DNA from: Thermogemmatispora sp.
GTDB taxonomy: Bacteria; Chloroflexota; Ktedonobacteria; Ktedonobacterales; Ktedonobacteraceae
Length of the DNA: 39,844 bases
Assembly (NCBI RefSeq): GCF_019683755.1
Contig: NZ_JADGHT010000006.1
Coordinates: forward strand, 1-39,844
Reading direction: 5' to 3'
The translations under genes and the position numbers were made by a program. Position 1 is the first letter of the stretch, and each line of letters begins with the position of its first letter. Below are positions 1 to 17,919 of the stretch, piece by piece. The notes beneath the pieces were generated by a model that saw nothing but the letters and a program-made list of their open reading frames with translations, was not told where the DNA came from and made no database searches.

Positions 1-715
1 CGGCCATGTGGTCGAGAGTGCACGTGATACCTTTACGTCGGGAACGACTCCGGTGGAGGGCTACAGTACGGCTATCGCCGATGCGCTGGCCCATCAGGCT
101 GATGTGATCTTTCTGGCCGGCACCGATGTCGATGCAGTGCGTCTAGCCCATGAGATCGGTATTCTGTCGCGGGCCCAGCCGGATAATACGGCGCTGGCCA
201 ATTTAAAGGTGTTGACGGGTCCGGCTGTTGCTACGAGCCTGCTCCTGGGCGAGGGAGATAGCGCCGATGCTTTCTTGGCCCGTTCCTTTCCCGAGGATAT
301 GCAGCGCATTTATGTCCTGGCCTATGCCGATCCAAGCGAGTGGAGCAATGTGCCGCAGTTGGAGCAGCCTACGCTCTTCACCGACTGGGCCGGTATTTTC
401 CAGAACCAGAAGGAGAGCGCTAATAATGCTCCACCCCCCGATCAAAATGCCATCATGACTTATGATGCGGTGCGTGTCCTGGCTCGCGCAGCCTCTTATG
501 TCAAGGGCGCGCTCAATGGCCCCAATGTGCGCGCTATGCTCAATGCCCTTGGCAACGGTCCCCTACCGGCCTTTGACGGCGCCAGCGGTCGCATTAGCTT
601 CGATTCGCTAGGGAACCCGGGCGATAAGGCGCTGGTGATGCTCCAGGTTCGCCAGGACCAAACGACTGGGGCTTCCACGTTTGCAATGGTTCGTCTGTTT
701 GGGGCACTACACTGA
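1..715 (+). CDS. ABC-type (branched-chain amino acid-like) substrate-binding protein, C-terminal part; 5' end outside window
   Basis: Open frame from the window edge to a stop at 713-715; periplasmic-binding-protein type 1 style sequence (AIADALAHQADVIFLAGTDVDAVRLAHEIG; ...IMTYDAVRVLARAASYVKG...; FDGASGRISFDSLGNPGDKALVMLQV). Confidence 0.75.
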   Translation, partial: GHVVESARDTFTSGTTPVEGYSTAIADALAHQADVIFLAGTDVDAVRLAHEIGILSRAQPDNTALANLKVLTGPAVATSLLLGEGDSADAFLARSFPEDMQRIYVLAYADPSEWSNVPQLEQPTLFTDWAGIFQNQKESANNAPPPDQNAIMTYDAVRVLARAASYVKGALNGPNVRAMLNALGNGPLPAFDGASGRISFDSLGNPGDKALVMLQVRQDQTTGASTFAMVRLFGALH

Positions 716-778
716 CGCATCTTCCCCTCGTCAGAAGGCCAGCCACGCTGGCGCATGAGGCGTGATCCTCTCCAGGAA

Positions 779-819
779 CTCCATGCCGATCGGCTGTGCC
801 CAGTCCGATCGGCATGGAG
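779..819 (+). terminator. Rho-independent-like hairpin downstream of the substrate-binding protein gene
   Basis: Perfect 15-bp inverted repeat CTCCATGCCGATCGG / CCGATCGGCATGGAG (779-793/805-819), 11-nt loop, followed by moderately T-rich ctgcttgtttgcttg. Confidence 0.65.
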
Positions 820-998
820 CTGCTTGTTTGCTTGTCGCCGTCTGACAGGGTCTTCACGCCTCTCTCCTCCTCGGATTCGCCTTTGAGAGGTGTATGCGGT
901 ATACTGAAAGCAGCTTTGCCAGTCTGGTCTGGCCGGAGCTGGCCTGGTAGGCCAGTATCTTGCTGGGAGGGCAATATAGCAGGAAGAAGGAGCGCACG

Positions 999-2078
999 AT
1001 GGTGATCGATCTGCGCAGCGATACGGTGACTCAGCCAACGCCCGCGATGCGTGAGGCCATGTATCGCGCCGAGGTCGGTGATGATGTCTATGGCGAAGAT
1101 CCAACGGTGAACCGCTTGCAGGAATTGGCAGCGGAGCGCCTTGGTAAGGAGGCGGCGCTCTTTGTGACCAGTGGCACGATGGGGAATACGACGGCCCTGC
1201 TGACGCATGTGGGACGTGGCGCGGCGGCTATTGTGGGTGACCAGGCCCATATCTATCGCTATGAGGGCGGGGGCGCGTCCCGCCTGGGCGGTATTCAACT
1301 CTGGGTGGTGCCCAATCAGCCAGATGGGTCCTTCGATCTGCAGCAGCTCGCCTCGGCCATCACCGATGAGAGCGATGAGCATACGCCGCCAACGGCTCTG
1401 CTGTGTTTGGAGAATACGCATAATCGCTGCGGGGGGTGCGTGCTTTCCCTGGAGCAGATGACAACTCTCTGCCGTCTGGCTCATGCGCACGGCCTCCGGG
1501 TCCACGTTGATGGGGCCCGGATCTTTAATGCAGCCGTGGCTCTGGGCGTGCCCGCCAGTCAACTTGTTGCTGAGGCCGACTCGGTAATGTTTTGCCTTTC
1601 GAAGGGTCTGAGTGCCCCCGTCGGTTCGTTGTTGGTTGGCAGCCGGGACTTTATCCGGCGCGCACGCAGGACGCGGAAGGTGCTCGGTGGCGGTCTGCGT
1701 CAGGCTGGCATCCTGGCCGCCGCCGGTATTGTGGCCTTGGAGCAGATGGTCGATCGTCTGGCCGAGGACCACGAGCATGCTCGCTTTCTGGCTCAGCGCC
1801 TGGCCGAGCTGCCCCAGGTGCGCCTTGATCCACCGCGTGTGCAGACTAATATCGTGCTCTTCCGTCTGCACGATGGCGAGCGCGTTCTGAGCGAGAAGGA
1901 TTGCAGCGAGTTTCTGGCTCGCCTCAAGGATGAGGGCCTATTGCTGAGCAGTATGGGTGATGGTCTGCTGCGGGCCGTGACCCATTATGGCATCGAGCGC
2001 TCACATCTTGAAAAGGCTTTGGTAGTAATAAAGCGCACACTGGATGCGATGCTGCCACGCAGTGCTCAGAGAAGATGA
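999..2078 (+). CDS. ltaE: Low-specificity L-threonine aldolase (PLP-dependent)
   Basis: MVIDLRSDTVTQPTPAMREAMYRAEVGDDVYGEDPTVNRLQE... is the characteristic N-terminus; HVDGARIFNAAVALGV and SVMFCLSKGLSAPVGSLLVG (PLP-Lys region). ATG at 999 preferred over upstream in-frame start. Confidence 0.93.
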   Translation: MVIDLRSDTVTQPTPAMREAMYRAEVGDDVYGEDPTVNRLQELAAERLGKEAALFVTSGTMGNTTALLTHVGRGAAAIVGDQAHIYRYEGGGASRLGGIQLWVVPNQPDGSFDLQQLASAITDESDEHTPPTALLCLENTHNRCGGCVLSLEQMTTLCRLAHAHGLRVHVDGARIFNAAVALGVPASQLVAEADSVMFCLSKGLSAPVGSLLVGSRDFIRRARRTRKVLGGGLRQAGILAAAGIVALEQMVDRLAEDHEHARFLAQRLAELPQVRLDPPRVQTNIVLFRLHDGERVLSEKDCSEFLARLKDEGLLLSSMGDGLLRAVTHYGIERSHLEKALVVIKRTLDAMLPRSAQRR

Positions 2079-2222
2079 GCAGAGCTACAGCCCTTTCCAG
2101 CGAAAGAGGCGTAGGGATTGGAAGAGCAGCGCACTCTTGCGTTCTCCTCCAAGAGGGAGAGCAGGCTCTCTCTCCCTAGGCTTTCCCAGGGGTAGAGGAG
2201 AGCCAGTCAAGCGAGGAATGGC

Positions 2223-2948
2223 ATGATGATGGGAAATTCGCCAGCAAACTGGCGTCAGCAGATGAAAGCCGCTCGCCGCCTGGCCCGCCAGCAAGCCCGA
2301 CTTTACCGCCACGAGGCACGGCGACAGGCGCGCGCCTATCGCCGCCAGCTCCGCGCAGATCAGCGGGGGCGTCTCTCTGCCAAGCCGCTTGCCGCCTTGG
2401 GCACGCTCATTATGATTGCAACTTTTGCCGGCATGGGGTATGTTCTCGTCCACGGGAGCTGGCATCTCCTCTTGACGATTTTCTTTGGCGGTTTGGCTAT
2501 GAGTAGCTTTTTGCATGCGCTGGCTCAAGGACGGTGGAGAGCGAGCCTGAACAGTCTTGTCTATCTGTTGGCCACTGCCGCTTTCTTCCTTAGTGGTTCC
2601 TGGACCTGGTTCCTGCTGGCGTTGCTCTGCTCTTTCACCATCAACAGCGTCGAACAAGGTCTAAAGAGCCTGTTTGGTAGACATCCCTCCCGATCATCTC
2701 CATCGCTCCCTATCAGCACAGCAGCGCCAGCGCCGGCCTCGGAGGCGAGCGCGAACAGCGCTCCAGAGCCGCCCTATGCGCCCTACCATCAGGGTTACTC
2801 TGCGCAGAGCAGGCGGGCAGTCAGCGCCGCGCCCGGTAGAGCCGTTGCAACACCAGAAGCGCAGGCTGCTTCCACAAGCCACTATACGCAGCCGCTGATC
2901 TCCTATCCTGAAGAAAGCCCCCAGGTCCTGCCGCCGCAGTCTCATTAA
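2223..2948 (+). CDS. Hypothetical membrane protein (two to three TM segments, Arg-rich N-terminus)
   Basis: 241-aa ORF; hydrophobic segments LGTLIMIATFAGMGYVLVHG, LLLTIFFGGLAMSSFLHAL and LVYLLATAAFFLSGSWTWFLLALL; Pro/Ser/Ala-rich C-terminus. Confidence 0.6.
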   Translation: MMMGNSPANWRQQMKAARRLARQQARLYRHEARRQARAYRRQLRADQRGRLSAKPLAALGTLIMIATFAGMGYVLVHGSWHLLLTIFFGGLAMSSFLHALAQGRWRASLNSLVYLLATAAFFLSGSWTWFLLALLCSFTINSVEQGLKSLFGRHPSRSSPSLPISTAAPAPASEASANSAPEPPYAPYHQGYSAQSRRAVSAAPGRAVATPEAQAASTSHYTQPLISYPEESPQVLPPQSH

Positions 2949-3100
2949 GGGTGGGCGCTCGCCCCCTCTTGGTGACCTTGCAGCTCCCTCTGGGACGCGG
3001 TAGAATCCGCACAGGAGCCTTGTTCTGCCTGTTTCTTTCCAGGGCAGAAGCCAGGGCGATTACGGTAGAGCTTGTTGAGAAGCAAGAGGAGCTGCGAGCA

Positions 3101-3952
3101 ATGACATTGACAGCGATCGCAGACGCTGTGGCCGTCGTGACGGGAGCGGCCAGCGGCATTGGTCTGGCTACAGCCCGCGCCCTCCGTAAGCGAGGCGCAC
3201 ACGTTGTGCTTGCCGACATAAACGCCGATGGCTTGAGAGAGGCCTCTCAACGCTTACAGCAAGAAGGTGACGCTCAGGAGCACGGCAAAGTGCTGGCCGT
3301 CGTCACTGACGTCACCGTTGCTTCTCAGGTTGAGGAACTGATGCGGCAAGCAGCGGCACTTGACGGCGGTCATCTCGACCTGGTAGTGACCAGCGCCGGT
3401 ATCGGACGCGGCGGGTCGATCGATAGCTTCTCCGCCCAGGATATGGAAGCCCTGCTGACAATCAACTTCATGGGCACCTTCCACTGTGTCAAAGCGGCCT
3501 TGCCAATCATGCGGCGCCAGGGCCGGGGTCACTTCATCTTTCTCTCGTCGGTGGCCGGTAAATTGCCGGTGCCCGCCCTCAGTGGCTACTGCGCAAGCAA
3601 GTGGGCTGTACGCGGCTTTGCTGCTGCACTGCGAGCAGAACTCTATGGCAGCGGGATCGGTATCACCACGGTCTATCCTTCCTGGGTCGATACACCAATG
3701 GTTCACCAGGCCGAGGCCGACTCGCAGCTCCTCAACATCCAAGCCCTGCTCACTCCCGAGCAGGTTGCTGACGAGATGATCCAGGCGGCCCTGCACGACC
3801 GACGCGATCTGACGCTGGCACCGGATCGCGATACAGCCTTGATCCTGCAAGTCATGCAGCAAGACCCTGAGAAGGCCGAAGAGCTGATGGGGCGCGCCTT
3901 TCAACAGCGCCTGGCCCAGCTTCAGGGATCAGGCCAGGAGCAGGCCTCTTAG
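3101..3952 (+). CDS. SDR family NAD(P)-dependent oxidoreductase
   Basis: VTGAASGIGLATARAL (TGxxxGxG), SAGIGRGG, SSVAGKLPVPALSGYCASKWAV (Ser-Tyr-x3-Lys). ATG at 3101 preferred. Confidence 0.92.
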   Translation: MTLTAIADAVAVVTGAASGIGLATARALRKRGAHVVLADINADGLREASQRLQQEGDAQEHGKVLAVVTDVTVASQVEELMRQAAALDGGHLDLVVTSAGIGRGGSIDSFSAQDMEALLTINFMGTFHCVKAALPIMRRQGRGHFIFLSSVAGKLPVPALSGYCASKWAVRGFAAALRAELYGSGIGITTVYPSWVDTPMVHQAEADSQLLNIQALLTPEQVADEMIQAALHDRRDLTLAPDRDTALILQVMQQDPEKAEELMGRAFQQRLAQLQGSGQEQAS

Positions 3953-4050
3953 CCGAGGGTGCCCAGGCAGAGAGCAAGAAGCCCTGAGAAAAGTGAAAGG
4001 AGGAGCTGGCTGCAGGGCCAGGCCAAGAGCAAGCGAGGAGAAGAAGACGC

Positions 4051-4962
4051 ATGACAGAGGCCAGACAAGCCAAGCCTAGCCAGAACGAGGTTGGCTCTTA
4101 CGGTTACTACGGACCCGAAAGCGTTACGTGGAAAATTACACGCGAGGCGGCGATTCTGCTAGGGGGAGCACGCGCCGTCTTATTGCAGATCGCTCATCCG
4201 CTCGTGGCCGAGGGCGTCTATACCCATAGCAGCTACCTCACTGACCCGCTGGCGCGCACCTTGCATACGTTCATGCTCGGCCAGATCCTTACCTTTGGAG
4301 ATCGGCCCGAGGCTCACGAGGCAGCACGCACCATCAACCGTCTCCACGCTGGCGTCTTTGGCCATCTGTCTCATGATGCCGGCGCTTTTCGTCGCGGGAC
4401 CTTCTACCGGGCCCGCGATCAGGAGCTCCTTCTGTGGGTTCATGCTACCCTGGTCGACACGGCGTTGCTCTTCTACACCAGTCTGATTGGATCTTTGAGC
4501 GCCGATGAGCAGGAGCGCTACTATCAGGAAAGCAAGGCTCAGGCGCGCTTACTGGGATTGCAGCCCAGGCATATGCCGGCGACGCTGGCCGACCTGCAGC
4601 GCTATGTGGCGGATATGGTCGAGAGCGATCGGCTGGCAGCCACGCCTCAGGCGCGCCGCCTGGCTCATACGGTGCTGTTTCCACCGCTGCCAACTGTCTT
4701 CCGCCCAGTGCTCCATCTCCATTTTTTGATCACTTGCGGCTTCCTGCCGGAGCCGGTGCGCGCCCTTTATGGCTATCCCTGGGGGCCAGGCCACCAACAA
4801 GCCTTTGAGCTGATTATCCAAGGACTACGGAGTACGTTACCTCATCTACCACTCAGGCTGCGCACCTTGCCGGTGACGCGCCACATCATGGAGCGTCGCC
4901 TCTCTTCAATCCGCCTACAAGCGTATGCCCGCTCGGTGCGCGAAGCACGCGCCTCAGCGTAA
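4051..4962 (+). CDS. Oxygenase MpaB family protein (DUF2236)
   Basis: YGYYGPESVTWKITREAAILLGGARAVLLQIAHPLVAEGVYTHSSYLTDPLARTLHTF... RTINRLHAGVFGHL; typical DUF2236 motifs. Confidence 0.88.
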   Translation: MTEARQAKPSQNEVGSYGYYGPESVTWKITREAAILLGGARAVLLQIAHPLVAEGVYTHSSYLTDPLARTLHTFMLGQILTFGDRPEAHEAARTINRLHAGVFGHLSHDAGAFRRGTFYRARDQELLLWVHATLVDTALLFYTSLIGSLSADEQERYYQESKAQARLLGLQPRHMPATLADLQRYVADMVESDRLAATPQARRLAHTVLFPPLPTVFRPVLHLHFLITCGFLPEPVRALYGYPWGPGHQQAFELIIQGLRSTLPHLPLRLRTLPVTRHIMERRLSSIRLQAYARSVREARASA

Positions 4963-5301
4963 GGAAGGCATACGAGGGAGGAGTGGGCCAGCGTCCAGAG
5001 CGATCATCAGCAGCATGAGAACAATGGAGAGTGGAGAGGCACCTCAACATCTTTAGATAAGCGACAATCGCAAGCCCGCAGAGAGATAGAGCACAAGATC
5101 TGCGAGAGGCGGATGACAAAGCAAGCAAGCAGCAAGCGGAGACCTGGCTGAGCCGGGACCAGACAGACCCCGGGACGGTCAGATCCCGCTGGCTGCTAGC
5201 CGGGCGCAGAGATAGCTGAGGGCGCCAGCGACGCAGGCGGCTATCAGTAAGCAACCTGGCAGCCATGAGGCAACCTGCGCAGCACGCAGCAGACCTCTCT
5301 G

Positions 5302-5457
5302 CTAGTGCGAGACAGCCCCACTTGCAAAGAACGCCAACAGCAGCAGCCAGCTTATCACAAAAGCCACCAGCAGGCGAATTGTCCAACTAGAGAGTATACG
5401 TCCTGGCTGACGACGGGCTGAGGCGCTCTCGTGCACAGATGAGCTTTCTCCACCCAT
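5302..5457 (-). CDS. Small (51 aa) single-TM protein
   Basis: MGGESSSVHESASARRQPGRILSSWTIRLLVAFVISWLLLLAFFASGAVSH; perfect AGGAGG Shine-Dalgarno (gggaaAGGAGGttctctATG) just upstream of the internal ATG at 5457. Confidence 0.55.
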   Translation of the reverse strand: MGGESSSVHESASARRQPGRILSSWTIRLLVAFVISWLLLLAFFASGAVSH

Positions 5458-5602
5458 AGAGAACCTCCTTTCCCAAAGACGGCGCTCACTCTTCTGCAGC
5501 GAGATATACATGTCTGCCACTGTCTAGATGTACTACATTTATTACTATGACCCAGAGGGCCGTCTTTGTTAAGGGGAACAGGACTTCTGGATTGTTCTTA
5601 TA

Positions 5603-5974
5603 TCACTTGTCGCTGGCACGACACTGCGGGCATTCACAAAGCTGGCGCAGTTTTTCAAAGGTAAAGATACCCGTGCGATGACCATCCTCCCAGATAGGAG
5701 TCAGGCCATAGCGTCCCACCGGTTCCAAGTTGACCAGCGTCGTTTCTTCCGTCGTCAGATGTTGCCGACGCTGCAACCTACCAGGCGCACCTCCCTCGCC
5801 AGCACAGATAGCACAGGGACAGGCACGGCGCAGCCTCTCCCAAGAGTAGATGCCTTCATGCCCATCGCTCCAGCTCAAGATCAGACGTCGCTGCTGGTCA
5901 TCCAGCAGAAAAGAAGTGGGAAAGACATCGCGTGCTTCTTGCATTGTTCCGCTCCTTGGAGCGAACTCTCCCAC
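5603..5974 (-). CDS. DUF971 domain-containing protein (gamma-butyrobetaine hydroxylase N-terminal-like domain)
   Basis: LILSWSDGHEGIYSWERLRRACPCAICAGE...NLEPVGRYGLTPIWEDGHRTGIFTFEKLRQLCEC matches the DUF971 consensus style. Confidence 0.85.
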   Translation of the reverse strand: MGEFAPRSGTMQEARDVFPTSFLLDDQQRRLILSWSDGHEGIYSWERLRRACPCAICAGEGGAPGRLQRRQHLTTEETTLVNLEPVGRYGLTPIWEDGHRTGIFTFEKLRQLCECPQCRASDK

Positions 5975-6090
5975 ACGGAGAACCAGCCAGCCGGCTCGAG
6001 TGGTGGCCGGCCTCGCTTATGGCTACTCGCTCCTCTTTTTGTACTCCAGCCCCATTATATCCCACCGTTGTTCTTGAGCAACTGTCAGAG

Positions 6091-6120
6091 CGGCCCGCTT
6101 GCTAGAAGAGGAGCGGGCCG
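6091..6120 (-). terminator. Hairpin spanning the stop codon of the CHAT gene
   Basis: 9-bp perfect inverted repeat CGGCCCGCT (6091-6099) / AGCGGGCCG (6112-6120); no strong T tract, so only terminator-like. Confidence 0.35.
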
Positions 6121-9100
6121 GGGTCGCCGATCAGCTGAAAAGCTGCCCAGAAATAGGGGTGAGCATCACACGCGCGTGCAGAGGCCCGGGTCCGGGCTAA
6201 AAAGGCACGCTGCGCCTCGGCCAGCGCCAGGGCCTTGGGGCGGCCAGCTAGCAGCCGTTCATAGAAGAGCGTCATCAGTTCAGCGCTACTGGCATCATCC
6301 ACCTTCCAGAGGGTAGGCAACAGCGAAGCCGCGCCCGCATAGAGAAAGCCACGTCCCAGTCCCATCACCTCATCCACTCCTCCTAAGACTACACGCCCTG
6401 TCTCACAGGCGCTCAGGGTGACTAGCGAGCAAGCAGCCAAATCAAGATTAAAGACCTCGATGCCGCTCAATTGACGATCAGCCAGTTGGATAAAAGAGAA
6501 ATTCGGCGCATCGAGGCGGAAGAGACCATGAGCGGCAATATGTACGAGCGGGGCCAGGGGTCCAGCCTCCAGCAGGCGCGCACTCGTAGCCTCCTCATTG
6601 ACATAGCAAGGGGCACCCAGCAAACGGGCAACGGCCTGGGCCTCCGCCACGGCCCAGGGCAGACGCCCGTGATCGGAGAGGCCCAAGACCAGAGCTTGGC
6701 GTAACGCCTGCCGGTGCGTGCGCAGGCACTGACCACGACGTTGGCAAATCTCCAAGAGCCGCAGCGAGGGCAGATACGAGACCGCCACGCGTTCTACTAA
6801 AAATTGCACGCCATCGAAAAGGCAATGGAACGGCAGATAATGCAGCAGGCCATAGGGGACGATCAGCAGGTGCTCGCAGGAGTAGAGAGCTGGTGCTGCC
6901 GGCTCTAACAGCAGATGATAGAGCTTTTGAAGCAGGCCCAGGCAGTTCTCCTGCAAAGCTACTAAGTCACGGCTGGCCTGCTCAGGCGAAGCCGCCGCCT
7001 GGCTCGCCAGATCAAGATTCAAGCGCCAGCGCGTATAGAGGCGTTCCAACTCAGGTAAGGCCCCAGGCAGACGTCGCCAGCGCAGATGGCCCTCCGCCAA
7101 CGAGAAGATGTAGAGGTCATCAGCGGCAAGATAGTACTCCAGCACCACTGTACGTGGTCCCAAGGAGCGCTCCAGCGCTGCCAGACGCCTCAGCCAGTCT
7201 TCCGTCCCCTCCCTGCCCCTTGTCCGAGAGGGTGACAGGCCTGCCTCAGCAGGCAGATGCAGCCGCTCTAGCAGGCGTTCGATCTGCTGCTCCCGCCGTC
7301 GCATCTCCTGCCGGGCCTGAGCTGGATCACTCAGTCGCAGACGCATAATCGCCGTCTCGCTCAAGTCAACTCGCTGCTCCGTCCCATAAAGGAGTGAACT
7401 AAACCAGGCCTGCTCTTCACGCAAACGTGCCAGCTCTTCTAGTAGCGCCTCCTGCTCCGGCTGTCCAGGACTTTCAAAGTGGACGCGGATCTCAAGCGTA
7501 TTGCGCACATAATCGCCAAGCACCCTCGACTTGGCCCGCTCTACATAGCCCAAAGCTTGCGCTCCATCGCCACGACGCAAGGCAAGGAGCACTGCTCTTT
7601 CATAGATCGCTCGCTTATCTTCGAGAAAGCTAGCGCGCGCATCGAAAACCAGACGCGCCTGAATCTCTTCGATACCCTGGACTGCCCGCTCATAGGCTTG
7701 AGCAGCTTCCGCCAGGGCCGCGCGTCGCTCTGCAAGCTGACCACGTAAATCCTCACAGCGATAGACCAGCTCGACCATCTCTTGCCCCTGCGCCAGTGCC
7801 AGAGCTTGAGCGCAGAGCGAGTCAGCCAGGGCCTCATCGCCGCAGCCGGCAGCAATCTGGGCCTGCAATAAGAGAGCACGCGCTAAGTAGGGGAGAGCAG
7901 CCTGTTGGGAGAAAGCGGTAGCGGCCAGACGTGCAGCGGCTAGACTCTCATCAAGTCGTCCACAGGCAAAGAGGAGTTCGGCTTGTAACAGCGCCAGGGA
8001 GGCAGCAGGGACCTGCAAGCCGCCTGCCTCCAGGAGCAGGCGCGCCTCCGCCAGTGAGCGTTCCGCCTGCTCTAGCTCTTTTAAGGCCAGGGCCGCTTGC
8101 GCCTGCCACATCAAAGCCTGGGCCAGATGATACTGCCCCCGACCACCAGGCACCGCCCGGAAAAAGGCCACCGCCTCCTCTGCCAGTTCAGCCGCCTCGC
8201 GTCCACGATTCAAGCGTAACAGGCAATAGCAGGCCTCACAGGCCACCTCGGCGGCTGCCAGCGCTAGACCGTGGCGCTGAAAAGTCGCGCGGCTGCGATC
8301 GAAGAGGGCAAGCGCTCTGCTGAAATAGCCCTGGGCAGCATAGATCTGGGCCATATTTAATTCCTGACGTGCGACCGCCAATTCCTGACCACGATAGGCA
8401 GCAAAGGTAGCTCGTGCCTGCTCATGGAGAGCCAGGGCCTCGCGAAAGTGACCTAGGGCGGCCAGAGTGACCGCCTTATTGGCCCAGGCCCGTGCTAGCG
8501 GTAGCTCTACCCCCTCGCCATGCTGGTGATAGGCCTCGATAGCCCGCTCAAAAAGCTTGAGCGCCTGGTGATAGTGACCAAGCTCATAGTGGACGATGGC
8601 CGCATTGGCATCCATTTGGCCTACCCGCAACCAGTTGCCATGCCGAAGAAAGATCGCTCGCGCCGCCGCAGCGTCTTGCAGCGCCTCCCCGAAACGGCCC
8701 ATCTGGAGACACACCGCAATGCGTCCGCTGCGCGTGCGAGCCCAGCCGAGCTGATCATTGCAGGCCAGAAATTCCTCACCAGCCGCATCAAAGTCCTGCA
8801 GGGCCTCCTCATCATGCTCCAGGCGCCGCAGGGCCTCAGCTCGGGTCAGCAAGCCAAGCCCACGGTAGTCGTGCCGTCCAGTGAGCTGCCCGATCAGCAA
8901 CAGGTAGGCAGCCAGACGCAAAGAAAGCAGCGGCTCGTCGTGCCAGCGTCGATCAGCCTCTTGCTTCAGGGCCGCCACGAGGCGCGCCAGGGCCAAGGGA
9001 GACAGCGAGGGGAGCTGCTGAATCAGCAAGCGCCGGCCCTCTTCCTCATCTGCACTCAAGAGCCGCTCAGCGAGCAGTTCCCAATCCGTCATATGGAATG

Positions 9101-9134
9101 CCGATAAAGGAACAGAATAGCGCTTATAAGCCAA
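6102..9134 (-). CDS. TPR-repeat CHAT-domain (caspase-like peptidase) protein
   Basis: N-terminal ~600 aa helical repeats of TPR type (e.g. YHQALKLFERAIEAYHQHG..., HFREALALHEQARATFAAY...); C-terminal CHAT domain with His motif LVHIAAHGLF and Cys motif LVTLSACETGRV, then GLGRGFLYAGAASLLPTLWKVDD. Confidence 0.92.
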   Translation of the reverse strand: MAYKRYSVPLSAFHMTDWELLAERLLSADEEEGRRLLIQQLPSLSPLALARLVAALKQEADRRWHDEPLLSLRLAAYLLLIGQLTGRHDYRGLGLLTRAEALRRLEHDEEALQDFDAAGEEFLACNDQLGWARTRSGRIAVCLQMGRFGEALQDAAAARAIFLRHGNWLRVGQMDANAAIVHYELGHYHQALKLFERAIEAYHQHGEGVELPLARAWANKAVTLAALGHFREALALHEQARATFAAYRGQELAVARQELNMAQIYAAQGYFSRALALFDRSRATFQRHGLALAAAEVACEACYCLLRLNRGREAAELAEEAVAFFRAVPGGRGQYHLAQALMWQAQAALALKELEQAERSLAEARLLLEAGGLQVPAASLALLQAELLFACGRLDESLAAARLAATAFSQQAALPYLARALLLQAQIAAGCGDEALADSLCAQALALAQGQEMVELVYRCEDLRGQLAERRAALAEAAQAYERAVQGIEEIQARLVFDARASFLEDKRAIYERAVLLALRRGDGAQALGYVERAKSRVLGDYVRNTLEIRVHFESPGQPEQEALLEELARLREEQAWFSSLLYGTEQRVDLSETAIMRLRLSDPAQARQEMRRREQQIERLLERLHLPAEAGLSPSRTRGREGTEDWLRRLAALERSLGPRTVVLEYYLAADDLYIFSLAEGHLRWRRLPGALPELERLYTRWRLNLDLASQAAASPEQASRDLVALQENCLGLLQKLYHLLLEPAAPALYSCEHLLIVPYGLLHYLPFHCLFDGVQFLVERVAVSYLPSLRLLEICQRRGQCLRTHRQALRQALVLGLSDHGRLPWAVAEAQAVARLLGAPCYVNEEATSARLLEAGPLAPLVHIAAHGLFRLDAPNFSFIQLADRQLSGIEVFNLDLAACSLVTLSACETGRVVLGGVDEVMGLGRGFLYAGAASLLPTLWKVDDASSAELMTLFYERLLAGRPKALALAEAQRAFLARTRASARACDAHPYFWAAFQLIGDPGPLLF

Positions 9135-9224
9135 GGATCACATAGAATAAAGTAGCAATAGCAAAAAGAGAAAAAGAAACCGAAGATAAGCGGGTAGGCC
9201 CGAGCCTTCTCTCTCTTAGCCAGA

Positions 9225-9240
9225 TTCCAAACGTTTGGAA
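9225..9240. promoter_or_regulatory. 16-bp perfect palindrome, possible operator upstream of the CHAT gene
   Basis: TTCCAAACGTTTGGAA, 91 bp upstream of the 9134 start on the minus strand, in an intergenic gap. Confidence 0.45.
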
Positions 9241-9364
9241 GGCCAAAAAATCACATCACCATCATCAGGTGCGGCCTGGCGGCAGAGCGAGACGTGCAGG
9301 ATAGAGGTCCCAAGGGTGAGAGAAGCCGCCAAGTCGCTCGCAGGCAGTTAGAGAAGAGACGGGG

Positions 9365-10303
9365 CTACTCTGGCAGTGCGAGCTGCAGCGACTCGATCAC
9401 CACAGTTCCCTCGGGGAACTGCAATTCCAGAGTATACATCTCGGGGGCCAGTGCCGAGAAGAGGAAATTACCCAACTCATCGATTTTACCAGAACGTACC
9501 GTACCTGAGGCAGCCGTCAGGCGCACCGGTGTTCCCTGGAGCGCCTCCAGGGCAGTTCCCTTGCGAGTCACAAAGCCGATCAGCTCCAAGCCATCCTGAT
9601 GCGAAGGGCCATATTCCACATGGAGAGAAATGCTAAAATCCTCAGCGCTATAGCGGCGGGGCCAGAGGGCCTCAGCCTGCTCCATCTGGGTCAGATCGCG
9701 CTGATAGGCCAAGCGCGGCTGAGGAGCCAGCAACGTAGCCACAATGCGGCGCGCACTGGAAGCCATCTGCTCTCCCAGCGACGCCCGCCCTGGTCGGGCC
9801 GCCGCCAGCGGGCGGGCCTGGGAAGGGCCATCATCCAGCGGCCAAGAAGAGGGCCAGGGCAGCGCCTCACTGGCCTCGGCCTCGGTTTCGGTCGAGGCTT
9901 CCTCTTGCTCGAGAGCTAGCGAGGCGGCCAGCTCCAACTCAGCCAGATCCAGTTCAGAGAGAGGCGAAGCCTCAGCAAGCTGAGTCTCTGCAGTCAGAAA
10001 GTGGGAGAGGATCGCCAGCTCTGCAGTACAATGCTGGCAGGTAGCCAGGTGGAAACGCACGGCCACAGCGACCTCCTTATTGAGCAGGCCGAGATAGTAC
10101 TCGCCAAGCACCTGAGCCGGGGGACAGTCCCAACGATACAGCGACTGGAGCAAAGTCAACTCAAGACGGCGATAGCTCTCCACCCGCGTCGCGCAGGTCG
10201 GACAAGTAGCCAGGTGCTCCAGCACAGCAGGTCGTACCTGCTCACCGGCAAGATAGGCGAGCATCTCCTCGTCGCTGATAGCACCCCGTTGACGACATTC
10301 CAT
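9365..10303 (-). CDS. Zinc-finger anti-sigma-factor-like protein, no predicted TM segment
   Basis: Two H-x3-C-x2-C motifs (HLATCPTC and HLATCQHC) in the N-terminus; acidic linker; C-terminal putative beta-sandwich region (GLELIGFVTRKGTALEALQGTPVRLTAASGTVRSGKIDELGNFLFSALAPEMYTLELQ). Upstream of CHAT gene and downstream of sigma-like gene. Confidence 0.75.
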   Translation of the reverse strand: MECRQRGAISDEEMLAYLAGEQVRPAVLEHLATCPTCATRVESYRRLELTLLQSLYRWDCPPAQVLGEYYLGLLNKEVAVAVRFHLATCQHCTAELAILSHFLTAETQLAEASPLSELDLAELELAASLALEQEEASTETEAEASEALPWPSSWPLDDGPSQARPLAAARPGRASLGEQMASSARRIVATLLAPQPRLAYQRDLTQMEQAEALWPRRYSAEDFSISLHVEYGPSHQDGLELIGFVTRKGTALEALQGTPVRLTAASGTVRSGKIDELGNFLFSALAPEMYTLELQFPEGTVVIESLQLALPE

Positions 10304-10760
10304 GAGCGTTTCCTCTGACCTTTAACTGAACTGAGTAAAACTGGCTGGTAGCCGCATCTTCCTCTTAGGCGTTCCCCACTCGCTCACACCTCAAGCCAAG
10401 GGAGCGAGCGCGACCACGCCAGCGCGGCAATTTCCGAGCATTGGTGCGTCCCTTGAAACGCCGGTCTGACCTGAGCCTTCCACGCCAATCTGTACCACGG
10501 GGCGAGACCTAGGGCCAACAGAGCAGGCTCCTTCTTTGTCTGCCCGCCTGTCTGCTTTCCTCGGTTTCATCCCCAATAAACGGCTACGCCTGCGATTTTA
10601 ACGCCTTTGAGCGTCGACTGCAAGAGCAAGGAGAGAAGGAGAAAGACCTGTCCAGCCAGGCCCCAGGGACTAGGACTTGACAACCCTTGACGAGGCCTAA
10701 CCAACCTTCCCCAGTCCGCACCTTTCTCCTAGGCAGACCGCGATGAGATACCCCCAAGAG

Positions 10761-11534
10761 CTACAGGCCCTTCACCAGCGCCTGCAAGCGACGATTGCGT
10801 CGGAGACGATCTAACATATTGCGCTTCAAACGATAGACATCATTGACCGACGGGAAGAGATGCCGAAAGCGCAGGCAGATCTCTGAGGGCTTCAAGCCCT
10901 GGACATAGGCCAAATAGATCAGCACGCGCTCCTCCTCACTATGCAGCTCCTCCATGATGGCTTGCCAGAGATCCTGAGCAGAGAGCTGAGTCAAGACCTC
11001 CTCAGCCGGGTCAGCGACCGCTGGCTCATGCTCCAGAGCCTCGAGCGCCTGCTCAAGCTGCTGGAGCTGCTGGGCACGCCCCTCATCGGTAACCACACTG
11101 TGCACGCACATCTTGAGATACTTCAAGAGCGCGGCCAGGGAATCGAACTGCTCAACCCGGGTCGGCGTCAGCGCCTGAGAGAACTTGGCAAAGACCAGGT
11201 TCACTACCGACTGCCCTCCATCACGCTCCACGAGGGAGGTGGCCGCCGGATGCTGATGCACCCAGCTCAATACGAGGGGGGCATACTGCTGATAGAGAGC
11301 GGCCCAGGCCTCCTCATCACGCAGCACTAAAGCCCGCCGGAATAGCTCTAGACAATAACGCTCATCCGCACGATTCTGCTTCAGAAAGCGGCTCGTCTCC
11401 TCAGCACAAGCACGCGCCAGAGCAGGAACAGACCACTGTGCCAAAGGCCGCAGCCGATCATCCCTATCCGGCTGGGCCGCGGCACCCGGCTGCGACTCGC
11501 TCTCGCCATGAGAAGAAGAGCCGCGAAACTCCAT
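10761..11534 (-). CDS. Sigma-70 family-like RNA polymerase sigma factor
   Basis: FRRALVLRDEEAWAALYQQYAPLVLSWV (region 2-like) and EERVLIYLAYVQGLKPSEICLRFRHLFPSVNDVYRLKRNMLDRLRRN (region 4-like). ATG at 11534 has GGAGGAG 9 nt upstream, so preferred over the GTG at 11552. Confidence 0.75.
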   Translation of the reverse strand: MEFRGSSSHGESESQPGAAAQPDRDDRLRPLAQWSVPALARACAEETSRFLKQNRADERYCLELFRRALVLRDEEAWAALYQQYAPLVLSWVHQHPAATSLVERDGGQSVVNLVFAKFSQALTPTRVEQFDSLAALLKYLKMCVHSVVTDEGRAQQLQQLEQALEALEHEPAVADPAEEVLTQLSAQDLWQAIMEELHSEEERVLIYLAYVQGLKPSEICLRFRHLFPSVNDVYRLKRNMLDRLRRNRRLQALVKGL

Positions 11535-11615
11535 AAGCAGACGCTCCTCCACAGGCCGTAGTAAGCGCTCACCAGCCAGCCGACCTGCTAGCAGGCTGGG
11601 TGCAAACGCTCTTGC

Positions 11616-11644
11616 AGTATAGCATCAGCCGCCGCGGCTGGCAA
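11616..11644 (-). promoter_or_regulatory. Sigma-70/SigA-type promoter for the sigma-like gene
   Basis: Minus strand reads TTGCCA - 17 nt (gccgcggcggctgatgc) - TATACT, about 80 nt upstream of the ATG at 11534. Confidence 0.55.
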
Positions 11645-11918
11645 GCCCAAAACGCCCGTCACCGCCCTCCTATCACCCTTTCAACTGCCCCTGGCCGCTG
11701 AGTCAATGTGCTCTCCATCAAATACCAACCATGCAGATTTTATCACAGCAAGCACCTGGAACAGAAACAGCCCCTGACGTGCTAAGAAAGATATCCCAGA
11801 AGATACGCTAGGGATGGTACATTTCCCTTGTCTATGCTATCATAGATTGGCGGTTGCTGCCGACATTCGACTCAATGGGGAGCGGAGGGCGGACATTATC
11901 GGGCAGAGCGAGGCACCC

Positions 11919-12662
11919 ATGCCACAGCAACGACAGACAGTCACTAATCGGCTCGCCGATGTGATCGAGGTCGTTCAGCTAGGACGAAAAACAGGCCTGC
12001 TGACGGTTGAGCGTGGGGAAGGGGCAGCCCTGGAAGAGGGTGCCATCACGTTTGTGAATGGACAGCCAGTGCAGGCACGGCTCGGGCCACATAGCGGCAT
12101 CGATGCCCTCAGACGCTTGAAGCTCTGGGGTCCTTGCCGCTTTGCCTTTGTGCCTTTCACCCCTCCATCGTCCTCACCACCGCCTCTGCTCGATGGTCAC
12201 GCTACTCCCGGCTCGCTGCCGGCCCTTCCGCAGCGCCAGGGGACCGATCCGCGCTTGCGCCGTGTGCCCACGCCACCATCCTCGGGCCCACTGGGTTCGC
12301 TGCCCTTCTCAGGTTCAGGTACAGGCTCAGGTACAGCGCCGGGCCTAGGCTCAGCGCCGGGCCAACGTGCTACCCCGTCGCTGCCTCTGCGCCAGACTGA
12401 ACCCCACCCGGACAGATGGGTGCCCCTGCCCGGAAGTGGGTCCTTTTCTCGTGCTCCTAGCCGCGTGTCGCTCTACGACGATGCTTTGCAACGCCTGGAG
12501 CAGCTCGGCTTCTCGCGTATCCACCGCCGGCTCTATCTGCTGATCGATGGTAACCGTACACCTGCCGAGCTGGCCCGCTTGATGGGCCGCAGCGAGGAGG
12601 AGGTCCTGCGCTTGCTCGCCGATCTGGAGCGCGCCGGCTTCGTCGTCTCTTCATCATCATAA
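11919..12662 (+). CDS. DUF4388 domain-containing protein with low-complexity linker and C-terminal winged-helix-like region
   Basis: RLADVIEVVQLGRKTGLLTVERGEGAALEEGAITFVNGQPVQARLGPHSGIDALRRLKLWGPCRFAFVP (DUF4388-like); C-terminus LYLLIDGNRTPAELARLMGRSEEEVLRLLADLERAGFV. ATG 11919 or upstream start 11814. Confidence 0.78.
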   Translation: MPQQRQTVTNRLADVIEVVQLGRKTGLLTVERGEGAALEEGAITFVNGQPVQARLGPHSGIDALRRLKLWGPCRFAFVPFTPPSSSPPPLLDGHATPGSLPALPQRQGTDPRLRRVPTPPSSGPLGSLPFSGSGTGSGTAPGLGSAPGQRATPSLPLRQTEPHPDRWVPLPGSGSFSRAPSRVSLYDDALQRLEQLGFSRIHRRLYLLIDGNRTPAELARLMGRSEEEVLRLLADLERAGFVVSSSS

Positions 12663-12980
12663 TAAATATATTCATAATAGATGAATATCTGCTAATTATA
12701 GAGAAATAAGGCATCCAACGCTCAATAAAGAAGATGCGGCGCGCAACAGCGCCAGCTCTGGCCTTCCCTTTGGCTCCATCTGGCCGTATTTGTTCGCTGT
12801 GCCAGTGGCTTTGTCGGGGATCTTGTGTAAGAAGGTGCCCCTTCCAGGCTTGAGAGCGAGATAGGCCAGTTGATCTCTCCCAGTAGCATGGTGCCAGCCA
12901 AGCACCAGCATGCCAGTGCCAGTAGATCGGGGCGGGGCGCTGCTGCCGCCCCTTGGATACCAAAGGACGGGTTTTCTTCC

Positions 12981-14498
12981 ATGCGTGATCAAGCGATGTC
13001 GTCATACCGCCGGCGGGGCCTCTCCCTGACCGCGCGTGTCTCTTTGCTCCTGGTCTTTGTCGCCATTGTTCCGCTACTCATCACGATCGTCGTCAGCCAG
13101 TTCGTCTCTCGCCCTGCTCTCACCGCTCAAGCACGTACCTCTCTGGATACCGATTCCAGCGAGCGCGTGCAGTTGATTAGTAACTATCTGAATGAACGAC
13201 TGCTTGACGCTGAGACCCTCGTCCAGGTGCCTTCGGTGATCCAGTTTCTGCTTGCTTCCCCAGCCGAACGCCAGGACCACGACCTCAGCGTTCATTCGCT
13301 CTACGCCCTTCAAGCTGGCATCAACCGAGACAATCGCTATACGCTCTGGTGTCTCTTTGATGCACAAGGACACCTGGTCCAGTATTGGCCGACCACTGTT
13401 CGGCCCCAGAATCGGGGCCAGTCCCTTGTTCCCCTTCCGTATCTGCGGCGCGTCAATGCCAACCAGCTCTTTATCTCCGGCGTCTACTACGATAGCGCCC
13501 ACAATAAGGCCTCGATCGATATTTACGCTCCTATTACTTTCCAGAAGCATGTGATCGGCTTCTTGCGCGCCTCACTCAATATCGACTTCATCTGGAACAC
13601 TGTCAACAGCGAGACGGGCGCTAATGGACCCGGCAGCTATGCCTTTCTGCTTGACGAGCACGGGGTACGCATCGCCGATCCTGATCCTACGCGTCGCTTC
13701 AAAGCTGTGGCTTCTCTCTCAGCCCAAGAGATGCAAGAGGTAAAGACCGAGGGTCTCTACGGCCTCCAGGGTAACCAGGACAGCTTGCCCCTGCTGGCTG
13801 ATCAGGCTCTGGCCGATTCGCTGCGCAGCAGCCAATTGTCTTCCTCCTTTGAGGCCACCCCTGCCAGCGAGAATGAACCATACGAGATCTTGCGCCATAA
13901 GATGACGGTCGTTCCCTGGACGTACTATGTGTTGAGTCCGGTCAGCACCGTAACGGCGGTGGTCAATAATCAGATGGTGAGCACGATTGTGATTGCGGCG
14001 GCCATGCTCCTGTTGGCGGCCTTTGTTGGTCTCTGGCTCGGTCAGCGTATTACGCAGCCGATCTTGCGCTCGGTTGACCACCTGCGCCGCAGTAGCGAGT
14101 CGCTGCAGACGCTGGCAGCGAAGCAGCAGAGCTCTTCCAGTGAACAGCAGTGGGTGATCGATTCGGCTCAGGTGGGCCTGCAGTCGGTACAGTACTATAC
14201 CGATGCTAGCAATGTGGCAGTCCGCCAGTTGATGTCGATGGTGACGGAGCTGCTGCAGCGCTGGCCACAGCTCGATGCGCGCACAGCTCAACGAGCGTTG
14301 CAGGAGATGGCCAATACGGCGCGCTATATCGAACAGGCCATCCAGTATCAGGAGACAAGCAATCAGAAGCTGGCCACAGCGATTAAGGTCACAACTCAGG
14401 TCAGCGAGCAACTGGCGGCAGGTGCTACCTCGGCCACCAGCGCCGCCGAGCAGTTGGAGCAAGTGGTGCGCCAGCTACGCCGTGTGGTGGGCCGCTAG
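12981..14498 (+). CDS. Cache-type two-TM membrane receptor, truncated methyl-accepting-like/coiled-coil C-terminus
   Basis: TM1 VSLLLVFVAIVPLLITIVVSQFV; extracellular Cache-like region (YTLWCLFDAQGHLVQYWP..., SGVYYDSAHNKASIDIYAPI, GSYAFLLDEHGVRIADPD); TM2 STIVIAAAMLLLAAFVGLWLGQRI; C-terminal helical region SEQLAAGATSATSAAEQLEQVVRQLRRVV. Confidence 0.75.
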   Translation: MRDQAMSSYRRRGLSLTARVSLLLVFVAIVPLLITIVVSQFVSRPALTAQARTSLDTDSSERVQLISNYLNERLLDAETLVQVPSVIQFLLASPAERQDHDLSVHSLYALQAGINRDNRYTLWCLFDAQGHLVQYWPTTVRPQNRGQSLVPLPYLRRVNANQLFISGVYYDSAHNKASIDIYAPITFQKHVIGFLRASLNIDFIWNTVNSETGANGPGSYAFLLDEHGVRIADPDPTRRFKAVASLSAQEMQEVKTEGLYGLQGNQDSLPLLADQALADSLRSSQLSSSFEATPASENEPYEILRHKMTVVPWTYYVLSPVSTVTAVVNNQMVSTIVIAAAMLLLAAFVGLWLGQRITQPILRSVDHLRRSSESLQTLAAKQQSSSSEQQWVIDSAQVGLQSVQYYTDASNVAVRQLMSMVTELLQRWPQLDARTAQRALQEMANTARYIEQAIQYQETSNQKLATAIKVTTQVSEQLAAGATSATSAAEQLEQVVRQLRRVVGR

Positions 14499-14651
14499 TC
14501 GCTGGGAGCGCTGTGTCTCTGCTCGCACAGCGCTCGCTTGGCGTTGCAAGAGCAGCAAGCAGGACGATGCCGCGTCCCATGCCTCGGCTATCGCCCTGCT
14601 CTTGTTTTGTTCGCTATTTTCTGTGTTGTCTTTCATCGAGGGGAGAACGCT

Positions 14652-15317
14652 ATGTCTGCTATGTTGTCTGCCGGCAGTGCAGAGAAGGGAGCAGAGCGCT
14701 GGCTGCCGCTGGGACCAATTGTGCGCTTGCAGGTTCAGACGGCCCCGCTCAAGGTGCCAGGAGATGCTGAGGAACTGCGCTATGATCCGGCTCCGCTGCG
14801 GCCTGTATCTCAGCTATGGTTATCTGCCGATGGAGTATTTGCGCTGCTGTCGGACGGCTCTCGCCTGTTGGATGTGCACCATCGCGAGCATCCACGCTCG
14901 CGCAATCGCGGCGGCAAGAACGGGGTTTCGCTGGGCTTCACGGCTCATTATCGGGCAATGCGCGCGCGTTTCGGCGAGCATCTGAGCGATGGCTGCGCAG
15001 GGGAGAATATTCTCATTGCCACTGAGCAGCCGGTCCGTCTGGAACTACTTCAGAATGGGCTGGTGATTATTGGGGCCGAGACGGGGCAAGCGGTGCGGTT
15101 GACGCGGCTGCGTGTGGCGACGCCCTGCCTGGAGTTTACGCGCTTCGCTCTGGGTCCCGAAGCGCTGTTCGCCTCTCCCTGCGAGCTGAAAGCAGCGTTG
15201 CAGTTTCTGGATCGGGGACAGCGCGGCTTTTATGCGACCTGCCCTGTAGAGGAGGCGCTTCCTATCGCCTGCGGCGACCAGGTTTTGGCTTTGGCAGCCT
15301 CGGCGGACCAGGGGTAG
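14652..15317 (+). CDS. MOSC-domain-like protein (divergent)
   Basis: FGEHLSDGCAGENILIATEQPVRL...GQAVRLTRLRVATPCLEFTRFALG resembles the MOSC core (GEN... and TPC motif). ATG 14652 preferred. Confidence 0.55.
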   Translation: MSAMLSAGSAEKGAERWLPLGPIVRLQVQTAPLKVPGDAEELRYDPAPLRPVSQLWLSADGVFALLSDGSRLLDVHHREHPRSRNRGGKNGVSLGFTAHYRAMRARFGEHLSDGCAGENILIATEQPVRLELLQNGLVIIGAETGQAVRLTRLRVATPCLEFTRFALGPEALFASPCELKAALQFLDRGQRGFYATCPVEEALPIACGDQVLALAASADQG

Positions 15318-15331
15318 ACCAAGGCCGAGGC
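15297..15331. terminator. Possible bidirectional terminator between convergent genes
   Basis: GCCTCGGC (15297-15304) / GCCGAGGC (15324-15331) inverted repeat spanning the stop codon of the MOSC-like gene; no clear T run. Confidence 0.3.
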
Positions 15332-15359
15332 CGCCGCTGCAGGATAGCAGGCTCACTGC

Positions 15360-16133
15360 TTAGATGGCCGTTCGCTTGAGGGAGTGCAGGCTCCAGAGAA
15401 AGGCCAGGAAGGTACACAAGCCAGCACAGAGGTAGCCCTGCCAGACGGCTACCTCTCCCAGCCTGCCCAGAAAGAGGGCCCGCGCCCCGTCAACGACATA
15501 GGCGAAGGGATTGAAGCGCGCTATCGCTTGCAACGGAGCTGGGGCCAGCGTCAGGGGAAGCATGATCCCCGAGAGGAGTAGGAGCGGAACACTGACCATG
15601 TTGAGCAGCGATGAGAGGGCTTCGGCACTGCGTAAGAGGAGGGCCAGGCTATAGGAGCAAGCCGCCAGACCCAGGCCTAGCAGGGCAAGTAGCAGAAGCG
15701 CTAGCAAGAGGCCGCTAGGGGAGACCCGCAGCCCCAGTGGTAGGGCTATGAGACAGATCAGGGACACTTGGATGAGCAGGGTCATTATGTCGAGCAGCAG
15801 GCGGCTGAGTAACAGGGCCGTCCGTGGGATAGGCGTCACTAGCAGACGCTCAACGAAGCCGCTCTGTAGCTCCACGACCAGTCCAAAGCCCACATAGCCC
15901 GCTCCAAAGATGGCCATCATGACCAGGAGACCTGGCACGTAGACGGCCATGGCTTCGCCCGCCGGCATAGCTGAGATGCCGCTCAGGTTCTGCAGCAACG
16001 GTGCAAAGAGGAGCAGATAACAGAGCGGCTGGAAAAGACCAAAGATGATCCAGATAGGATGATGCCAGGCCTGCCGAGCCTGGCGCAGCCAGAGATAGAA
16101 AACACAAGAGATAAGCTGCATGCTAGTGCTCAC
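15360..16133 (-). CDS. ABC-2 type transporter permease
   Basis: Six hydrophobic segments, LVTPIPRTALLLSRLLLDIMTLLIQVSL and ARFNPFAYVVDGARALFLG typical of DrrB-like permeases; overlaps ATPase gene stop by GTGA. Confidence 0.88.
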   Translation of the reverse strand: MSTSMQLISCVFYLWLRQARQAWHHPIWIIFGLFQPLCYLLLFAPLLQNLSGISAMPAGEAMAVYVPGLLVMMAIFGAGYVGFGLVVELQSGFVERLLVTPIPRTALLLSRLLLDIMTLLIQVSLICLIALPLGLRVSPSGLLLALLLLALLGLGLAACSYSLALLLRSAEALSSLLNMVSVPLLLLSGIMLPLTLAPAPLQAIARFNPFAYVVDGARALFLGRLGEVAVWQGYLCAGLCTFLAFLWSLHSLKRTAI

Positions 16134-17149
16134 TTTCCTTTCCAGGAGAAATCAGAACGGATATCAGGAGGGGCTATCATTGGCTCCCTTCTCAGAGAGC
16201 GACCGGTATAGCGGAGGAAAGCGTCATCTAACGAGGGGCGCTCCAGGGTCAGGCTGGTGACGGTTAGACTAGCTTCCTCAAGCAGACGGAGTACAGCCGC
16301 GAGGGCGACCTCCGGCTGCTCTACAGTCAGACGTAGTCGCTCGCCGTCGCCTTCTTGGTGAATGGCCCGGATATATGAACAGGGGCGCAGCAGGGCTGCC
16401 GCTTGCTGCCCAGGGTTGGAGGAGCCGGATTGCGCCAGAGTGAGGATGAGGGTCGCACCAGTGCTCTCTTGCTTGAGCTGGTCAGGAGTGCCCTCGACGA
16501 CAATGCGCCCCTGGTCGATGAGCGCCAGATGGGTGCAGAGTTGATCAGCCTCGTCGAGATAGTGGGTGGTCAGGAGGATGGTGACCCCTTGAGCCCGCAG
16601 GGCGCGCAGGGAGTCCCAGAGCTGGCGCCGGCTGGCAGGATCAAGGCCCAGGCTCGGCTCATCAAGTAGGAGTAGAGGAGGACGATGCACCAGGCCCAGC
16701 GCCAGATCGAGACGCCGACGTTGACCACCTGAAAGGGAGCCGACAGATCTTCCAGCTAGCTCGCTTAGCTCCAGTTGCTCAAGCACTTCGCTAACGCGCC
16801 GCCGCGCTGCTTGGCCTCTCAGGCCATAAAGGTGGGCTTGTAACATGAGGTCCTGAAAAACTGTTGCCCGGATATCTGTACCTCCTTGCTGACCGACATA
16901 GCCGAGCCGGCGGCGTAGCTGCTCCGGGTGACGGCGTAGCTCAATGCCGGCGATGGTCACGTTTCCCCGGTCCGCTGGGAGCAAGGTGGCTAGTATCCGT
17001 AGCAGGGTAGTTTTGCCCGCCCCGTTCGGCCCCAGAAGGCCAAAACATTCGCCTTCGGCGACGCTCAGCGAGAGGCCACGCAAGGCTTCAACGCTGCGCC
17101 CCCGCCAACGATAGCTTTTCCAGAGATCGCTAACGCTGATGAGAGACAT
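16130..17149 (-). CDS. ABC transporter ATP-binding protein (drug-exporter type)
   Basis: Walker A LLGPNGAGKTTLLR, signature SLSGGQRRRLDLALGLVHRPPLLLLDEPSLGLDP (Walker B), H-loop TTHYLDEADQL. ATG at 17149 with AAAGGAG upstream. Confidence 0.95.
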   Translation of the reverse strand: MSLISVSDLWKSYRWRGRSVEALRGLSLSVAEGECFGLLGPNGAGKTTLLRILATLLPADRGNVTIAGIELRRHPEQLRRRLGYVGQQGGTDIRATVFQDLMLQAHLYGLRGQAARRRVSEVLEQLELSELAGRSVGSLSGGQRRRLDLALGLVHRPPLLLLDEPSLGLDPASRRQLWDSLRALRAQGVTILLTTHYLDEADQLCTHLALIDQGRIVVEGTPDQLKQESTGATLILTLAQSGSSNPGQQAAALLRPCSYIRAIHQEGDGERLRLTVEQPEVALAAVLRLLEEASLTVTSLTLERPSLDDAFLRYTGRSLRREPMIAPPDIRSDFSWKGK

Positions 17150-17172
17150 CGCTTTGTCTTCTCCTTTCATTG

Positions 17173-17197
17173 TTATATACATACCGAATGTATGTAT
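17173..17197. promoter_or_regulatory. TetR-type operator copy 2 (in front of ABC ATPase gene)
   Basis: TTATATACAT-ACCGA-ATGTATGTAT: right half identical to, and left half 8/10 identical to, the operator in front of the TetR gene. Confidence 0.7.
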
Positions 17198-17217
17198 GGA
17201 AGCTAAAAAAAAGCCGA

Positions 17218-17829
17218 CTAGGGTGCACACAGGCCACGAATGAAGATCTCGACAGCCTCGGTGGCGCAGGTGCGCAGAGAAAAGGCGCGGGGATTGAGAA
17301 GCCAGAGGCTGCTGAGACCCATGATCAGGCTGTAAGCGGTTATGGCGGCTTGCTCGGGAACGACCTCGGGGCGGATCTCGCCAGCGGCACGGGCGCGTTG
17401 GAGCAGCTCGGCAAAGTGGCCAATCCCGGCCTGAACAGCCTGGATCTTCTCAGCGACGCCGCTCTCCAGCTCGGGCAGTAAGCCAGTGCGCATGGTGGTT
17501 AGCTCTAGCATGGCGCGAAAGTCGGCATCCTCTTCAGGGTAGCTCAGCCAGGCCAGGAGAATTTGACGCAGCTTCTCCAGCGGAGAGCCATCACGCTGAT
17601 AGAGCGGCTGTAGCTTGCGCGCGGCGCGCTCATACTGCTCACGTACCAGGGTATTGAAAAGATCAGCCTTGCTGCCAAAATGCCACTGAATGGCCCCCCG
17701 CGTTGTTCCCGCCCGGCGTGCAATTTCCTCCAGCGTGGTGGCGGCATAGCCATGCTCCAGAAAACACTGCAGGGCCGCCTGCAGTAACTGCTCACGTGTC
17801 CGGGCCGCTGCTTCCTGGGTTCTCCTCAT
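17218..17829 (-). CDS. TetR/AcrR family transcriptional regulator
   Basis: TREQLLQAALQCFLEHGYAATTLEEIARRAGTTRGAIQWHFGSKADLFNTLV - canonical TetR N-terminal HTH. ATG 17829 preferred. Confidence 0.95.
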   Translation of the reverse strand: MRRTQEAAARTREQLLQAALQCFLEHGYAATTLEEIARRAGTTRGAIQWHFGSKADLFNTLVREQYERAARKLQPLYQRDGSPLEKLRQILLAWLSYPEEDADFRAMLELTTMRTGLLPELESGVAEKIQAVQAGIGHFAELLQRARAAGEIRPEVVPEQAAITAYSLIMGLSSLWLLNPRAFSLRTCATEAVEIFIRGLCAP

Positions 17830-17852
17830 TGCTGGCTGCCCTCTCTTTCTGA

Positions 17853-17877
17853 ATACATACATACCACATGTATGTAT
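17853..17877. promoter_or_regulatory. TetR-type operator copy 1 (in front of TetR gene)
   Basis: Perfect 10-bp inverted repeat ATACATACAT-ACCAC-ATGTATGTAT directly upstream of the TetR start. Confidence 0.75.
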
Positions 17878-17919
17878 CTTTGTCAAGGGAGAAACCTCGC
17901 CAGGCGAGGGGGAGAAAGG

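Follow-up and report, generated by a model that had tools for sequence, protein, structure and literature searches.

A conserved sigma, zinc anti-sigma-like and TPR-CHAT gene set in Chloroflexota: a candidate CRISPR-free, protease-gated transcription switch

Can a caspase-like protease release a bacterial sigma factor from its inhibitor where no CRISPR system stands beside it? In the type III-E CASP (Craspase) module, which includes CASP-sigma, the TPR-CHAT protein Csx29 cuts Csx30, an inhibitor of the sigma factor (PMC10028731). The question is raised outside CRISPR by a locus in the window, by which we mean the whole stretch of 39,844 nucleotides analysed here. Its source is a Thermogemmatispora-like MAG of Chloroflexota (4.9 Mb, 537 contigs), and the closest named relatives are Thermogemmatispora species, with a sigma identity of about 86-88% in a search with the sigma sequence. 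A sequence-only reading had described three consecutive minus-strand genes, all of which were found where it had placed them. The features are as follows.

10761-11534, minus strand: divergent ECF-like sigma factor, 257 aa, starting at ATG 11534 (TIGR02937 below cut-off, orthologues in 18 loci, canonical ECF sigmas at the equivalent place of other, homologous operons)
9365-10303, minus strand: soluble zinc anti-sigma (ZAS)-like protein, 312 aa (zf-HC2, weak profile matches to known anti-sigmas, AlphaFold model, alignments)
6102-9134, minus strand: TPR-CHAT protease-like protein of 1010 aa if TTG 9134 is the start, 996 aa if it is ATG 9092 (PF12770, structure model, dyad)
11616-11644, minus strand: likely promoter of housekeeping type for the sigma gene, with TTGCCA (11644-11639) and TATACT (11621-11616) 17 nt apart, read from the sequence

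A TATACT-like element stands at the aligned position upstream of the sigma gene in many, not all, relatives, and no conserved promoter upstream of the ZAS or CHAT gene could be read from the alignment of relatives. The intergenic gaps measure 457 bp and 230 bp, the sizes given earlier. They are large in the genus Thermogemmatispora and shrink in relatives to a few bp, or the genes overlap. The earlier reading had remarked that no CRISPR component is visible; a search of window positions 1-20000 for a CRISPR-like array found none, and direct repeats occurred at chance level only. A PADLOC run gave no defence match for CHAT or ZAS. Two genes divergent from the sigma gene (11814-14498), one for a DUF4388 protein and one for a membrane protein with a dCache domain, are a possible input or regulon, and this pair adjoins the three genes in 16 of the 18 relatives. 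Further along, the palindrome TACATACATACC...ATGTATGTAT occurs in two copies (17174-17197 and 17854-17877) on either side of a TetR-like gene (17218-17886); they are likely operators.

The conservation of the gene order across Chloroflexota, proposed earlier as a check, proved strong. A search with the sigma alone gave 19 loci, 18 of which form the set considered here, all from Ktedonobacterales or labelled Chloroflexi. The order and strand of sigma, ZAS and CHAT are kept in 18/18, with CHAT ending at the contig end in some, and the nineteenth match (L049) is a distant pair of sigma and ZAS that has no CHAT. The same family carries a second, paralogous set in the order sigma-ZAS-CHAT-S8, S8 being a subtilase. 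When 400 Chloroflexota genomes were searched with the CHAT alignment, 59 gave a match. The phylum count was made on 35 subfamily CHATs outside the class, each with at least 1.4 kb of upstream sequence: a sigma gene lies nearby in 26/35, an anti-sigma-like protein in 27/35, both in 24/35, and one or the other or both in 29/35. Among the other CHAT loci, an ECF-like gene was near in 1/21, on the opposite strand (Fisher p about 5e-9, a guide only, as the loci are related). In a tree read without branch supports, the sigma-linked CHATs group apart from the others. The grouping of the three genes is not due to chance.

It might be argued that the cluster is an old neighbourhood whose genes share no mechanism, an account to which the large gaps in Thermogemmatispora and the DUF4388/Cache pair, which likewise adjoins the cluster in most relatives, lend something. 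We regard it as very improbable in view of the independent paralogous set, the recurrence across the phylum relative to the control loci, the near-zero or overlapping gaps and the gene fusions described below. The association is also not rigid. Sigma-ZAS pairs that keep the beta-domain of ZAS and have no adjacent CHAT occur (L050, L058, L126, Thermogemmatispora included), and therefore CHAT is not always needed nearby; CHAT-S8 pairs without a neighbouring sigma occur as well (L166, L168, L169, L198). Broken or remnant CHAT genes were seen beside sigma-ZAS or ZAS at L087, L064 and L128. The module decays in some lineages.

The sigma-like gene is the weakest of the three assignments and lies below every curated cut-off. 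Its match to the ECF model TIGR02937 (E=4.6e-8) reaches 32.9 bits, below the cut-off of 42.9; a Pfam search gave no sigma-domain match, and a PDB profile search found nothing. Profile comparison with canonical ECF sigmas was moderate, at 41% probability. In homologous operons this slot can hold a canonical ECF sigma, with 85.7 bits for TIGR02937 and a Sigma70_r2 match above cut-off. Because of this shared slot and the partial TIGR02937 match, the window protein likely works like a sigma, which agrees with the earlier sigma-70-like assignment. Two further observations concern this gene family. L043 carries a second sigma-like fragment (15-398), some 3 kb upstream of the sigma gene of the three-gene set, and paralogous sigma genes without ZAS stand just downstream of large proteins (L053:9265-12651, L054:7880-10603, L066:8401-11457), which by eye resemble NB-ARC-type ATPases that end in a LuxR-like HTH.

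The TPR-CHAT assignment is firmer. PF12770 matches residues 734-1004 (E=9e-63, 212.8 bits against a cut-off of 24), with TPRs before the CHAT domain, and the His/Cys dyad, earlier described as apparently intact, is H869/C910 in the 1010-aa numbering. The two residues line up throughout the subfamily tree, fusion loci included, save for one open reading frame from which the motif region is lost; the Cys is missing in two non-sigma CHATs of the same alignment. The structure model (pLDDT 82.8) has separase (top) and Csx29 as best Foldseek matches, with a TM score of 0.56 by target length to Csx29 in the Csx30 complex (8eey_B). The NCBIfam Csx29 model gives 61.5 bits, mainly over the CHAT part, below its cut-off of 300. 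Searches of plasmids returned distant CHATs only, mostly cyanobacterial and proteobacterial.

The middle protein passes the curated zf-HC2 cut-off and carries both H-x3-C-x2-C motifs, as had been claimed for an anti-sigma-like protein. Two zinc ASD modules (about 1-105) are followed by a variable or disordered linker (about 110-175) and a beta-sandwich (about 185-310). In the AlphaFold model the ASD modules are helical, prediction is poor over residues 144-173, and the beta-sandwich follows. Profile searches point to the anti-sigma structures RslA, ChrR, DdvA and RsiW, all weakly, while a PDB search with the ZAS sequence alone gave nothing useful and Foldseek matched the model only to generic Ig/CnaB-like beta-sandwiches. 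The C-terminal domain is CarboxypepD_reg-like, below cut-off.

Such a protein could be a classical redox- or zinc-sensing anti-sigma of the ChrR/RsrA type, released by conformational change, with CHAT serving as an effector in the sigma's regulon and not as the releaser. The intact zinc motifs in the window, weak profile matches that include ChrR and RslA, and the sigma-ZAS pairs without CHAT speak for this explanation. We consider it unlikely. The zinc ligands are gone from many homologues beside which CHAT persists. In profile comparison, distant middle proteins, many of them without the ligands, match the second ASD and beta-domain with 99.3% probability. Since these two parts are kept while the ligands are lost, what is conserved is not zinc or redox sensing. 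Nine short ZAS proteins have no beta-domain, and none of the nine has a CHAT gene next to it, which suggests that beta-domain and CHAT are linked. The redox explanation also has to accommodate loci where sigma and ZAS are one chain.

Indeed, a single open reading frame encodes both sigma and ZAS in three genomes (L197:8903-10450, L239:7214-8707, L240:7069-8595); it lies directly upstream of CHAT, with an 8-bp overlap with CHAT in L240. L197 and L239 belong to one genus and L240 to another of the same family. A linker motif, GPxSL[KE], is common to the three fusions and precedes an internal Met, possibly the former start of ZAS; the motif itself might serve for cleavage or for binding, or be a relic. 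These natural fusions beside CHAT, together with the conserved neighbourhood, lend indirect support to the earlier idea that the anti-sigma-like protein is the partner of the sigma. A tethered anti-sigma needs a release step, which we count in favour of release by a protease.

An alternative target for the protease is offered by the S8 subtilase, the fourth component of the wider system. CHAT might mainly cut something else, such as an S8 zymogen or cell proteins, with ZAS and sigma only controlling CHAT expression in a stress or cell-death module. S8 is adjacent in 21/35 of the phylum CHAT loci (outside the class) and in the paralogous set, one S8 homologue bears a fervidolysin-like prodomain, and the CHAT-S8 pairs without sigma would fit too. 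Against this, the window's clade has its S8 at an unlinked site and the fusion loci have none beside CHAT, whereas ZAS stays beside CHAT in both, and to us the proposal appears quite improbable. Unlinked S8 genes of the operon subfamily are present both in the window genome (G000:C197, 548-aa open reading frame, L254:6744-8387) and in the relatives examined, while G029 and G030 have such an S8 and no three-gene set. In several relatives the unlinked S8 lies near a gene that by eye is iron-sulphur insertion-like. Any connection of the unlinked S8 with the three window genes is a guess.

The reading that we favour, with moderate confidence, is a CRISPR-free protease-gated sigma switch. Given the phylum-wide recurrence of the three genes, in some genomes with a switch-inhibitor fusion, the protease would most likely free the switch by cutting the inhibitor. 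The sigma would be made from a housekeeping-type promoter, and the soluble double-ZAS protein would bind and hold it. CHAT would detect a cue through its TPR solenoid, which, once triggered, would realign the His869/Cys910 dyad. CHAT would then cut ZAS, the probable site being the disordered linker or the C-terminal beta-sandwich, or cut the linker of the fusion, leaving the sigma free for RNA polymerase and a presumed regulon. S8, the next gene in most relatives outside the window's clade, may finish the degradation or act downstream. A broader version remains tentative and is rather doubtful in our estimation: a phylum-wide, CRISPR-free Chloroflexota cascade in which TPR-CHAT frees the sigma from ZAS, or cuts the fusion, and works with S8. 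The signalling arm of type III-E CRISPR could then be related to such a stand-alone module, having been recruited.

What is new here is the middle gene as a probable anti-sigma, the sigma-ZAS fusions and the phylum-wide CRISPR-free distribution; no earlier report of these three points was found in the literature searched, the coverage of which was partial. If the proposed switch is real, bacterial transcription is widely under the control of caspase-like proteases, with no need for CRISPR, and the set may be a source module for the Craspase pathway. It would also be a tractable system, as a fused sigma-anti-sigma beside a likely protease allows cleavage to be tested directly. The notion that no anti-sigma exists in ECF54-type contexts would then have to be revised.

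Among known systems, separase and HetF, CHAT-type proteases of clan CD, share with the window protein a TPR-like solenoid joined to a caspase-like domain, and separase is its top structural match. Separase cuts cohesin in eukaryotes and HetF acts in cyanobacterial development; neither is known from a sigma/ZAS operon. The soluble ZAS anti-sigmas (ChrR, RslA, RsrA) and those of ECF270/ECF271 resemble the middle protein in being soluble, in their zinc anti-sigma modules and in lying beside a sigma, whereas the window family has two ZAS modules and a beta-sandwich, a CHAT partner and, in some of its members, a loss of zinc ligands. ECF271 has a Chloroflexi example (PMC8999054).

The company of CHAT, subtilase and carboxypeptidase genes has been noticed before, in Actinobacteria (PMC8999054). 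In ECF54 of that phylum these are the neighbours, and proteolytic control with no anti-sigma factor has been proposed (PMC8999054, section 3.3). A possible likeness in gene context lies in the carboxypeptidase-type domain, subtilase and CHAT: the window has CHAT and a CarboxypepD_reg-like protein, with S8 adjacent in paralogues and phylum relatives and unlinked in the window's clade. Apart from the different phylum, Chloroflexota here, the carboxypeptidase-regulatory-like protein of the window differs in carrying ZAS modules, next to the sigma and fused to it in three genomes.

Compared with type III-E CASP, the window system lacks a CRISPR-like array near the genes (1-20000), its inhibitor is a ZAS/beta-sandwich protein, its TPR solenoid is longer and its CHAT scores far below the NCBIfam Csx29 cut-off (61.5 versus 300 bits). 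The two have in common a TPR-CHAT protein with a His/Cys dyad, an ECF-type sigma and a similar CHAT fold (PMC10028731), and in both the sigma inhibitor is the expected substrate of the protease, in the window system by prediction.
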